Assembly: GCA_902793375.1 (NCBI GenBank)
Contig: CADBDE010000003.1
Coordinates: 94,039 to 139,593 of the forward strand
Direction: 5' to 3'
Source of the DNA: an uncultured Erysipelotrichaceae bacterium
GTDB taxonomy: Bacteria; Bacillota_I; Bacilli_A; RF39; UBA660
DNA length: 45,555 bases
Below are positions 15,725 through 18,690 of this stretch, in pieces. Below the pieces are notes generated by a model, which searched no databases, was not told the origin of the DNA, and saw only the letters and a list, made by a program, of their open reading frames with translations. Each line of letters starts with the position of its first letter. The stretch's first letter is position 1. The position numbers were made by a program, and so were the translations under genes.

Positions 15725-16610
15725 AAGTTATTGAAGCTTCATAGATTTTACTAATCGAATCTCTTAACTTGTTATCAAATTCTTCTTCGGTTTGATTAAC
15801 ATTTAATCCTTCTAGAAGTGCTCTGGAAAAACTTGCAATCATTTTATTATTTAATGCAAGTAATGAACAAGCAACATCATTAGTATATCCACCTGACAAT
15901 GCTACTATTCTTACTACAAAGTCATAATTATTTAAATCAAAATAATAATTTGGAATAGTTGGAATAGTAAATTTAAACATTATTTTATATTCAGGATTCC
16001 AATTTAATAAATGCATTATTATTTCTTCTTTTAGAATTTCTTCACATAACTCTTTATCTTTTGAATTAATATCTACTTCTGGTTCTATAATTGGAACTAA
16101 ATCATTTTCACATATTATTTTAGCAAATTCAAATTGTTGATTAACTACTTGTTTAATTCCTTCCCTATTTGCTTCATAAATAACTGATCTCATCTTTGTT
16201 CCAAAAATATTTTTTTCTTTTGCAGCTTTTAAAGTATCAACAAGTCCTGGAATATCTTTCATAAGTTTTACTCCATTTTCTTGTTCTTTTAGTCCTTTAT
16301 CTACTTTCAAAAAAGAAATAATATTCTTATTTTCCCACAAATAATCAGCAGTATATTTATCTTCTATTTTTGAATTCATTGTTTTTTCAAATAAAATAGT
16401 TCCAAGAATATGCTCACTAGTAAATTCTTTACTTGTTATTACTCTTTTTCTCATTTCGTGAATCAAGTCAAACATTTCTTCTTCACTATTATATTTATCT
16501 TCTCCAATTCCATAAAGTGCTAAAGTTTTAGAACTACTTCCTCCACTTTGATCTAGTGCTGCAACAAATCCCTTTCTTGATTTGGCAATTTCTAATTTTA
16601 AAGTATCCAT
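15723..16610 (-). CDS. fda: Fructose-bisphosphate aldolase, class I
   Basis: The start is ATG 16610, preceded by GGAGGT; an ATG 12 bases upstream is part of that site. The ~295-residue length matches the bacterial class I family typified by staphylococcal FdaA. Signature segments are FVAALDQSGGSSSKTL (about residues 15-30), ILGTILFEKTM, SFLKVDKGL, MRSVIYEANR, VPIIEPEVD, the Schiff-base Lys region KIMFKFTIPT (about 205-214) and ALSGGYTNDVAC with MIASFSRALLEGL near the end (phosphate binding). It cleaves fructose 1,6-bisphosphate to DHAP and glyceraldehyde 3-phosphate in glycolysis, in the cytoplasm. Monocistronic. Confidence 0.93.
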   Translation of the reverse strand: MDTLKLEIAKSRKGFVAALDQSGGSSSKTLALYGIGEDKYNSEEEMFDLIHEMRKRVITSKEFTSEHILGTILFEKTMNSKIEDKYTADYLWENKNIISFLKVDKGLKEQENGVKLMKDIPGLVDTLKAAKEKNIFGTKMRSVIYEANREGIKQVVNQQFEFAKIICENDLVPIIEPEVDINSKDKELCEEILKEEIIMHLLNWNPEYKIMFKFTIPTIPNYYFDLNNYDFVVRIVALSGGYTNDVACSLLALNNKMIASFSRALLEGLNVNQTEEEFDNKLRDSISKIYEASIT

Positions 16611-16648
16611 ATATACCTCCATATAATATATTTTATCTTAAAAAAGAA

Positions 16649-16680
16649 AAAAAGAAATAATTATTGATTATTTTCTTTTT
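16649..16680 (-). terminator. Terminator downstream of the pilin locus
   Basis: AAAAAGAAATAAT pairs with ATTATTTTCTTTTT (one bulged base), followed by T-rich minus-strand sequence. It lies ~265 bases beyond the pilin stop, leaving a long 3' untranslated region that contains the two hairpins at 16869-16909. Confidence 0.6.
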
Positions 16681-16868
16681 ATTTTACAGATAATTATACA
16701 TTTTGATATTGAAAGTTAAATTCATTGATTAATTATGTTATTACTTTTTTCCTAGTTTTTCACTCTTAATTCTTAGTTGTTTCACAAGAAAAGTATTTAA
16801 TTGTTATTTTCATATGTCTTAATAACAAACAAATAACCTTGTTTTAACACTTTTGTTTTGCACTATTC

Positions 16869-16909
16869 GGAGTCTATCGACTCCTCAACATCTTTGCTTA
16901 CGCAAAGAT
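16869..16909 (-). other. Two perfect short hairpins with 4-base loops after the pilin gene
   Basis: Read on the coding (minus) strand, 34 bases past the pilin stop: ATCTTTGC-GTAA-GCAAAGAT (8-bp stem) then GGAGTC-GATA-GACTCC (6-bp stem). Neither is followed by a U-tract, so they are not ordinary terminators. In the Bordetella phage BPP-1 DGR a short hairpin/cruciform with a 4-base loop lies just downstream of the variable region and promotes homing. The rest of the 320-base gap (16623-16943) is A/T-rich and otherwise featureless apart from the terminator at its left. Confidence 0.6.
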
Positions 16910-16930
16910 TGATTCTAGAACTATAGATGC

Positions 16931-17093
16931 TCGGCGACCACTACTAGCTGCATTTCACAGAACCATCACCATACACGCTGCAGTTCTCGTACGCACCGTA
17001 ATCGTTGCAGTAGACGCTGCCATCCGAGTAGACGTCGCAGTTGAAATTGGGGGCATAGCAGTACACGAAGGACGAGTAAACATCGCAGCTATT
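16931..17093 (-). other. GC-rich 3' module of the pilin gene, candidate DGR variable region
   Basis: By hand count 84 of 160 bases (16931-17090) are G or C, about twice the level of the surrounding genes. All six Cys codons here are TGC and six of eight Tyr codons are TAC, while the Cys codons in the earlier part of the same gene are TGT. The encoded tail has three Cys-bracketed units (CDVYSSFVYC, CDVYSDGSVYC, CSVYGDGSVKC). An abrupt compositional border inside one reading frame, at the C-terminus of a surface protein, is what a DGR variable region or a swapped 3' cassette would look like. Confidence 0.55.
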
Positions 17094-17834
17094 ATCTGAG
17101 AATACCTCTTGTACGTGTTCTTTTTCTGCATCATAATTATTTGATTTAAAACAATGCTCAGTTCCATTTCTTTTTATACAAACTGCCAAACTGTTATCTG
17201 AATATAATCCTAATGTTGTTGGGGGATTTGTTCCATCATATATGTAATTTGTTGGATTATTACTTCCGCTAGAATTTGATTCTTCTCCTGTTTCAGAGTT
17301 TACTGGTATTAGATTCTCTGTTATTTCTCCTTCTTTCTTACAACTATTTCTTTCTGTTATTAATATTACTTTTCCTCTTCCATCTAGACTTCTATTAGTC
17401 TTTATATCTTCTGTTGTTAGATCACTTTCTATTGAATCAGTATCTAGTTTATCATATGATACAATTCCTTTTACACCTTGTCCTGCATCATCTACACTTG
17501 TCCAAAAATATGAGTATCCTTTTCCATCATATGTTACTACTACATATGCTCCATTATCGACAAAATCACCATATGGACTTTTCATTGCATTTTCTGTCTT
17601 CACACATTTAACATCTAGATAATATGTTGCATCTGTATCATACATTTCAAGCTTTCCTGCATTAACTAAGTTTCTAGCTGACCCAATTACCTCTTTTGCT
17701 GTATCTACATAAGCATTTTTTCTTGAATCACTAATATATCTTGTTACACTTGGTATTGCTATTATCATTAAAATACCTAGAATTATGATAACTGCTAAAA
17801 GTTCAATTAAAGTAAATCCATTTTTCTTTTTCAC
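16944..17834 (-). CDS. Type IV-pilin-like (pseudopilin) surface protein with a hypervariable-looking C-terminus
   Basis: Translation starts at GTG 17834 (AGGAGA about 10 bases upstream). The class III signal KKKNG/FTLIELLAVIIILGI is perfect: prepilin peptidase cleavage after Gly6, Phe1 and Glu5 of the mature protein, then a 20-residue hydrophobic helix. The middle has an RNAYVDTAKEVIGSARNLV helix and a beta-rich globular part (YVVVTYDGKGYSYFW, GRGKVILITER), then a Ser/Asn/Pro linker (about 185-205), the unit VCIKRNGTEHCFK, and the GC-rich Cys repeat tail. No pilus assembly ATPase or prepilin peptidase gene is in the window, and the gene stands alone between tRNA-Thr and aldolase. It would be exported and assembled or displayed on the surface; the tail is the likely ligand-contact region. 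Confidence 0.85.
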   Translation of the reverse strand: MKKKNGFTLIELLAVIIILGILMIIAIPSVTRYISDSRKNAYVDTAKEVIGSARNLVNAGKLEMYDTDATYYLDVKCVKTENAMKSPYGDFVDNGAYVVVTYDGKGYSYFWTSVDDAGQGVKGIVSYDKLDTDSIESDLTTEDIKTNRSLDGRGKVILITERNSCKKEGEITENLIPVNSETGEESNSSGSNNPTNYIYDGTNPPTTLGLYSDNSLAVCIKRNGTEHCFKSNNYDAEKEHVQEVFSDNSCDVYSSFVYCYAPNFNCDVYSDGSVYCNDYGAYENCSVYGDGSVKCS

Positions 17835-17893
17835 CTAACTTCTAATCTCCTACTCTACTTTGATTTTATCATAATTGATAATATAAGTAAATT

Positions 17894-17925
17894 AAAAAAA
17901 AACTAACAATAATGTTAGATTTTTT
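17894..17925 (-). terminator. Terminator of the gmk / tRNA-Thr transcript
   Basis: CTAACA and TGTTAG form the core stem around ATAA, extended by A/T pairs and followed on the minus strand by nine T. Confidence 0.75.
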
Positions 17926-17957
17926 ACTTCTTGGAATAATCCAAGTATCATTCAATA

Positions 17958-18033
17958 TGGTGCCGACTATCGGATTCGAACCAATGACCTACGCGTTACG
18001 AGTGCGTTGCACTACCAGCTGTGCTAAGTCGGC
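17958..18033 (-). tRNA. tRNA-Thr (anticodon CGT)
   Basis: The 76-base minus-strand sequence folds as a cloverleaf: acceptor stem GCCGACT/AGTCGGC, D stem GCAC/GTGC with AGCTGGTA loop, anticodon loop CTCGTAA (anticodon CGT, U33, A37), variable loop AGGTC, T stem ATTGG/CCGAT with loop TTCGAAT, and an encoded ACCA 3' end. The anticodon stem has one A-C mismatch next to the loop. It starts 9 bases after the gmk stop and shares its terminator. Confidence 0.95.
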
Positions 18034-18042
18034 ATATAAGAA

Positions 18043-18690
18043 TTAATTGTTAAAATCAACAAGCAATTCATGTATTAACTCTTCTTGATTATTTACATCA
18101 AATTCTTCAATTCTATCTACTCTACAACGTTCTGCTATTAATATAGCTTCTACTTTTTTTACTGCTAAATCAAGTTCATCATTAATAACTACATAGTTAT
18201 ATTTAGACATTTCATTAACTTCTTTATAAGCATTTTTAAATCTTTCGATTAAAGCATCTTTAGTTTCAGTTCCTCTTTTAACAAGTCTATTTTTTAATTC
18301 TTTCATAGAAGGTGGCATTACAAAAATAAATATTCCATCTTCTTTTTGTGCTTTAATATTTATTGCTCCTTGAATATCTATTTCAAGAAGTACATCATAA
18401 CCATTATCTATATCTCTTTCAACTTCTCTTTTTAATGTTCCATAATAATTTCCATGTACTTCTGCATATTCAAGAAAACTATTATTTTCTATTTCTTTTT
18501 TAAATTCTTCTTCTGTTACAAAAAAGTAATCTACTCCTTCAACTTCACCATCTCTTGGCTTTCTAGTTGTCATTGAAACAGATAACTTTAAATTTGAATC
18601 ATGTTTAAGTAACTCATTATGAATAGTACCTTTTCCTGCTCCAGATGGACCAGAAAGAATAATTAGACTACCATGATTTTTCTTACTCAT
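18043..18690 (-). CDS. gmk: Guanylate kinase
   Basis: The 215-residue length and motifs fit Gmk: P-loop LSGPSGAGKGT (about residues 11-21), GMP-binding SMTTRKPRDGEVEGVDYFFV (about 39-58), EYAEVHGNYYGT (about 74-85), LLEIDIQGA (about 99-107) and the lid arginines in RLVKRGTE. It phosphorylates GMP to GDP with ATP. ATG 18690 follows a GGAGGATATTGT site. Starts 28 bases after the stop of the YfcE-type gene upstream, so probably one transcript, ending in tRNA-Thr. Confidence 0.96.
   Translation of the reverse strand: MSKKNHGSLIILSGPSGAGKGTIHNELLKHDSNLKLSVSMTTRKPRDGEVEGVDYFFVTEEEFKKEIENNSFLEYAEVHGNYYGTLKREVERDIDNGYDVLLEIDIQGAINIKAQKEDGIFIFVMPPSMKELKNRLVKRGTETKDALIERFKNAYKEVNEMSKYNYVVINDELDLAVKKVEAILIAERCRVDRIEEFDVNNQEELIHELLVDFNN

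Follow-up and report, generated by a model that had tools for sequence, protein, structure and literature searches.

Hairpins downstream of a type IV prepilin gene as a probable target-side structure of a diversity-generating retroelement in an uncultured Erysipelotrichaceae bacterium

The window analysed here is a stretch of 45,555 nucleotides from the genome of an uncultured Erysipelotrichaceae bacterium (assembly GCA_902793375.1, contig CADBDE010000003.1, positions 94,039 to 139,593 of the forward strand). Just past the stop codon of a type IV prepilin-like gene it carries two perfect hairpins, H1 and H2, which with a probability of about 0.9 represent the target-side recognition structure of a diversity-generating retroelement (DGR). 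The GC-rich and Cys-rich tail of the pilin gene is, on comparative sequence grounds, a DGR-type variable region (VR). Comparison with related genomes shows the order VR, H1, an optional H2, a third stem-loop (H3), template repeat (TR), Avd and reverse transcriptase (RT), with H1 tracking the VRs and not the TRs. The hairpins are regarded as DGR target hairpins of a known kind, new in their target scaffold and in the presence of an extra conserved stem-loop.

The variable tail of the pilin gene and the hairpins that follow it

The following features were recognised at this locus, all of them on the minus strand:

16944..17834 (-): target gene, encoding a type IV prepilin-like protein of 296 aa with a Cys-rich C-terminal tail (ORF, PF07963, TIGR02532)
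16931..17087 (-): candidate DGR-type VR, GC-rich, with an uncertain 5' limit
16931..16943 (-): putative GC-rich 3' end of the VR, resembling an initiation of mutagenic homing (IMH) sequence, TAGTGGTCGCC after the first stop
16911..16919 (-): conserved motif TCTAGAATC ahead of H1, from alignments A1/A2
16890..16909 (-): H1, ATCTTTGC-GTAA-GCAAAGAT, 8-bp stem and GTAA loop, conserved with compensatory changes over 18 sites
16869..16884 (-): H2, GGAGTC-GATA-GACTCC, 6-bp stem and GATA loop, a facultative element
16841..16863 (-): decayed remnant of H3, GTGCAAAACAAAAGTGTTAAAAC versus GTGCCGAACGAAAGTGTAGGCAC in the relative G211 (alignments A1/A2), stem unpaired in the window

The target gene has the GFTLIE class III signal and the N-methylation helix of type IV prepilins; its N-terminus is matched by PF07963 (N_methyl, E=3.2e-8), and the match to TIGR02532 exceeds that model's cut-off. 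The final ~50 codons are GC-rich and Cys-rich, and the GC content of ~0.49 in 16900-17099 compares with 0.2-0.3 in the surroundings. Elsewhere in the genome the tail recurs once, on contig C7, in a gene that is frameshifted upstream of its tail. These two copies differ at 32/147 VR bases versus 5/171 flanking bases (p = 1e-7), and 22 of the 23 differing codons are nonsynonymous, while they agree at all 87 aligned positions preceding the VR and are 85-91% identical in the N-terminal part. Because the cognate TR was not available, the adenine focus of the window VR was tested against the TR of the relative G211: 24 of the 32 differences fall on its A columns (24/42 A versus 8/105 other, p = 4.7e-10). 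The absence of the cognate TR from the assembly also leaves the 5' limit of the VR uncertain, and no such TR delimits the IMH; the sequence TAGTGGTCGCC sits where the identity between VR and TR stops in the G211 locus L057 (TAGTAGTCGCTCGCCCC). About 50 prepilin-like paralogues in the genome share the N-terminal ~190 residues of the window pilin and differ in their C-terminal parts, and many of them coincide with breaks of the assembly at contig ends.

A previous sequence-only reading of the window had described two perfect 4-base-loop hairpins 34 bases past the pilin stop, and both are present, on the coding strand: the stop codon lies at 16946..16944, H1 begins 34 bases further 3' and occupies 16909..16890, and H2 follows at 16884..16869 after the spacer GTTGA. 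They form the sole close pair with GC-containing stems among the perfect 4-nt-loop hairpins of the window, a comparable close pair appeared in 0/100 first-order Markov simulations of the window, and 16836-16933 folded as single-strand DNA gave z = -4.9 versus dinucleotide shuffles. The lack of a U-tract that had been pointed out was confirmed, no T-run following either hairpin. The remark that the real terminator lies 190 bases further on was unsupported, because the hairpins lack a T-run and a scan of 16600-18050 returned no terminator-like site, that is, no GC stem with a U-tract; ~190 bases 3' of the hairpins there is only an A/T-rich palindrome (16641-16680).

Target sites and retroelements in related genomes

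The proposal that the hairpins mark the target side of a DGR had come with two checks, conservation of the stems by compensating changes and presence of the same hairpins after other DGR targets, and both support it, with corrections given below. A covariance model, R1, was built from six post-VR regions and matched 18 sites in 11 of 386 same-family genomes. Seventeen of these sites follow a Cys-rich tail, and the remaining one is truncated by the end of its contig; sites on prepilins include the window, L097, L106, L110, L100 and L107. In H1, all eight base pairs (8/8) have changed on both sides among the 18 sites, with 97.8% of the cells paired. The whole structure is paired in 96.4%, versus 36-50% in slid controls, although these pairing figures lean towards structure because the alignment was fitted to the model. 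R1 matches a single coding-strand site in each cassette, no TR is followed by a match, and five sites have a nearby TR with A-biased mismatches, most of them adjoining Avd and RT.

H2 is absent from 8/18 sites, and counterparts of other sequence occur at the same place in L099 (GGACC-GAAA-GGTCC), L102, L105 and L109. H3, which the sequence-only reading had missed, is a third stem-loop that follows the hairpins and is conserved in sequence (GTGCC-GA-AC-GNNA-GT-GTA-GGCAC); it is paired in most relatives, and its stem covaries (GCGCC/GGCGC, GCGAC/GTCGC). At L057 2947-2969 it reads GTGCCGAACGAAAGTGTAGGCAC, and it is present at other A2 sites. That its tip is GNNA is suggestive, and H3 may play a part in homing. 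Homologous tails that lack such a hairpin were found in L058, L059 and L061-L063, which have A/T-rich codons and no signs of a VR; L060 has a GC-rich homologous tail, yet no hairpin after it.

Pairs of TR and VR were sought by blastn with an A-bias filter. In G211:C98 (L057), which came from a search of the 386 genomes of the family, the order is target gene, VR, hairpin, TR, an Avd-like gene, and the first part of an RT that the contig end truncates. The hairpin, ATCTTTGC-GATA-GCAAAGAT, has a stem identical to that of H1 in the window, the translated TR is nearly all Asn at the variable places (CNVNSESVNCNASDFNCNVNSNGNVNCNDNGAGSNCNVNSDGSVNCS), and the changes from TR to VR affect 19/43 A and 3/118 other bases. 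Avd is recognised here by NF033474 and PF22296, with scores below the curated cut-offs. A full set was found in G001 (L091), which belongs to the same genus and has the target, VR, H1, H3, TR, Avd and an RT with the LGNLTSQ and YMDD motifs. The target of this DGR (L091 3882-5255) is a SipW-dependent BsaA/TasA-like surface protein (TIGR04090), no prepilin. Over the five TR-bearing loci with a target, template A is changed at 106/207 positions versus 20/505 for the other bases; one of the five, G206:C8, has no recognised adjacent RT. The genome G206 encodes five DGR-type RTs. In a related target, L124 6001-6360, the VR is joined directly to the post-TR sequence without H1-H3, and the TR and hairpins seem to have been deleted here by recombination between VR and TR. 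No relative of the tail, the post-VR sequence or H3 was found among phage records and viral contigs, so that a phage origin is without support here.

The retroelement reading and its rivals

In phage BPP-1, a hairpin/cruciform near the VR is needed for efficient homing, as the sequence-only reading had stated; what counts in the stem is its structure and not its sequence, and a GRNA loop is required (PMC3240598). The site described here resembles that of BPP-1 in its 8-bp stem, 4-nt loop, location on the coding strand and distance range of 4-34 bp from the VR end, as well as in the GC-rich VR end, the hairpin found on the target side only, and the conservation of stem structure over stem sequence (PMC3240598). 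Unlike BPP-1, whose target is a phage tail fibre, the target is a bacterial prepilin, the stems are A/T-rich, the loops are often not GRNA, H2 and H3 are additional, and RT and TR are absent from the window's assembly. Following the BPP-1 work, H1 would extrude as a hairpin or cruciform and mark the VR as recipient; adenine-mutagenised cDNA copied from TR RNA would then replace the VR, and this replacement would rewrite one face of the Cys-rich tail of the pilin. In the nanoarchaeal DUSEL4 DGRs, hairpins near the VR have trinucleotide GRA loops, a size other than 4 (PMC4372165), and the hairpin of L091, from the same genus as the window, can likewise be drawn with a 3-nt GAA loop; the DUSEL4 hairpin lies inside the target gene, whereas the hairpins described here lie outside it, after the stop.

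Several observations weigh against a DGR target site. Searches of the assembly to which the window belongs (G000; 1.59 Mb in 31 contigs, 96.6% complete) yielded neither a DGR RT nor an Avd or a TR, and H3 is decayed at both copies in this genome, the one in the window included. The H1 loop of the window, GTAA, violates the 4-nt GRNA consensus of phage DGRs (PMC3240598), and a 4-nt GRNA loop at H1 occurs in only 3/18 sites, so that the phage loop rule does not hold here; the GATA loop of H2 fits GRNA, but on a stem of 6 bp. H1 stems are often A/T-rich (G/C at 3/8 pairs in the window), while the published phage stems are GC-rich. Finally, that homing takes place in this clade we infer from the BPP-1 precedent, with which H1 agrees in position, size and covariation and disagrees in the loop rule. 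Of the DGR reading put forward earlier, the target side stood, while H2 proved facultative, the H1 loop fell outside GRNA and the machinery was not encountered in the window's genome.

The motif [IL]GxxxSQ of DGR RTs was not found in the assembly. Its single RT, located at L041 1072-2307 (G000:C2:84774-85319), is retron-like by its motifs QGYPTSP and YVDD; as a candidate for the DGR RT it was discarded on the QGYPTSP motif. The target in G000 looks orphaned. With no RT, Avd or TR and with H3 decayed at both copies, it is either retired or served by an unassembled DGR, and the two are about equally likely. The hairpins may be a relic, persisting without present function at a former DGR target whose element was lost, for which we see an even chance; this explanation differs from that of a DGR target site in present activity only, and the confidences in the two overlap. 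The empty 96.6%-complete assembly, the decay of H3, the frameshift in the C7 copy, the GTAA loop of H1, and the genomes G352 and G132, which likewise carry target sites without a matching RT, all speak for a relic. On the other side, the window retains an intact pilin frame and intact H1 and H2, and repeated breaks of the assembly at pilin genes mean that it could lack a DGR.

The hairpins could also be an element of the 3' end of the pilin mRNA, either a terminator or a stabilising stem, as they are located close behind the stop and give a good RNA fold. This is very improbable: a U-tract is lacking and the terminator scan is empty here, an Rfam search gave tRNA as its sole match and none for the hairpins or H3, and only hypervariable Cys-rich tails precede the structure, the ~50 other pilin paralogues of G000 having no match to the model. 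Least credible is that silent and expressed pilin tails undergo cassette exchange or gene conversion at the hairpins, in the manner of Neisseria-like antigenic variation; the sequence-only reading had named another structure-directed recombination such as cassette exchange as its alternative, which is not needed. Pilin paralogues do agree in the N-terminal part and diverge in the C-terminal part, and the two copies of the tail share identical bases upstream of the VR and a similar N-terminal part, but there is no store of silent tails (just the one other copy), the differences affect single bases on adenine columns instead of blocks, TR, Avd and RT occur in relatives, and module swapping, which may occur besides, does not explain the VR. 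Block identity, examined as a trace of such exchange, gave a modest mosaic only.

Predicted fold of the variable domain

The most unusual part of the system is the VR domain, predicted to be a single-layer beta-sheet and apparently distinct from the C-type lectin fold. An AlphaFold2 model of the tail, computed with 18 relatives, reached a pLDDT of 90 and a pTM of 0.78, with predicted residues 42-90 arranged as three successive beta-hairpins (a beta-meander). The tail has no Pfam or PDB sequence match. In a fold search, the nearest solved folds were single-layer sheets (CPAP G-box, OspA and Polo-box) with Z up to 7.3, values within the range for a common arrangement, and homology to these proteins was not concluded. 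No C-type lectin stood among the folds listed in this search, and one may lie outside that list. The template of G211 has its Asn codons in alternation with those for Val, Cys or Phe over the predicted strands, an arrangement that would bring the variable residues together on a single face of the sheet.

Catalogued VR regions with annotation are systematically C-type lectins (PMC8144416). Like the C-type-lectin VR proteins (Mtd, TvpA, AvpA and the catalogue of PMC8144416), the proteins described here have a C-terminal VR, AAC/AAT template codons and a probable surface location; unlike them, they have a short Cys-rich tail, a predicted single-layer beta-meander, and no Pfam or PDB sequence match. 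No report of this domain, nor of type IV prepilins as DGR targets, was found in searches of an open-access library.

Taken as a whole, the picture would be that of a DGR lineage of gut Bacilli with a three-hairpin target site (H1, optional H2, and H3 with its GNNA tip) and a non-C-lectin, Cys-rich single-layer sheet whose template Asn codons alternate with Val/Cys, making an entire face programmable; the sheet would be carried by type IV prepilins as well as by other surface proteins, and it could be targeted at a distance from the cassette. We consider this combination evenly poised between right and wrong. If true, programmed diversity would have a second natural scaffold, and a compact one, in a small disulphide-rich sheet of which one face is templated throughout, and the diversification of type IV pilins by reverse transcription would join gene conversion as a second route to pilin variation. 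The 18 sites, with their natural variants of loop and stem, losses of H2 and decayed H3, provide a series for studying what DGR targets need beyond the phage rules. The relatives' other DGRs (L084, L085, L087-L090) have GVRPV-type VR ends without this hairpin array, and resemble the usual C-type lectin class.
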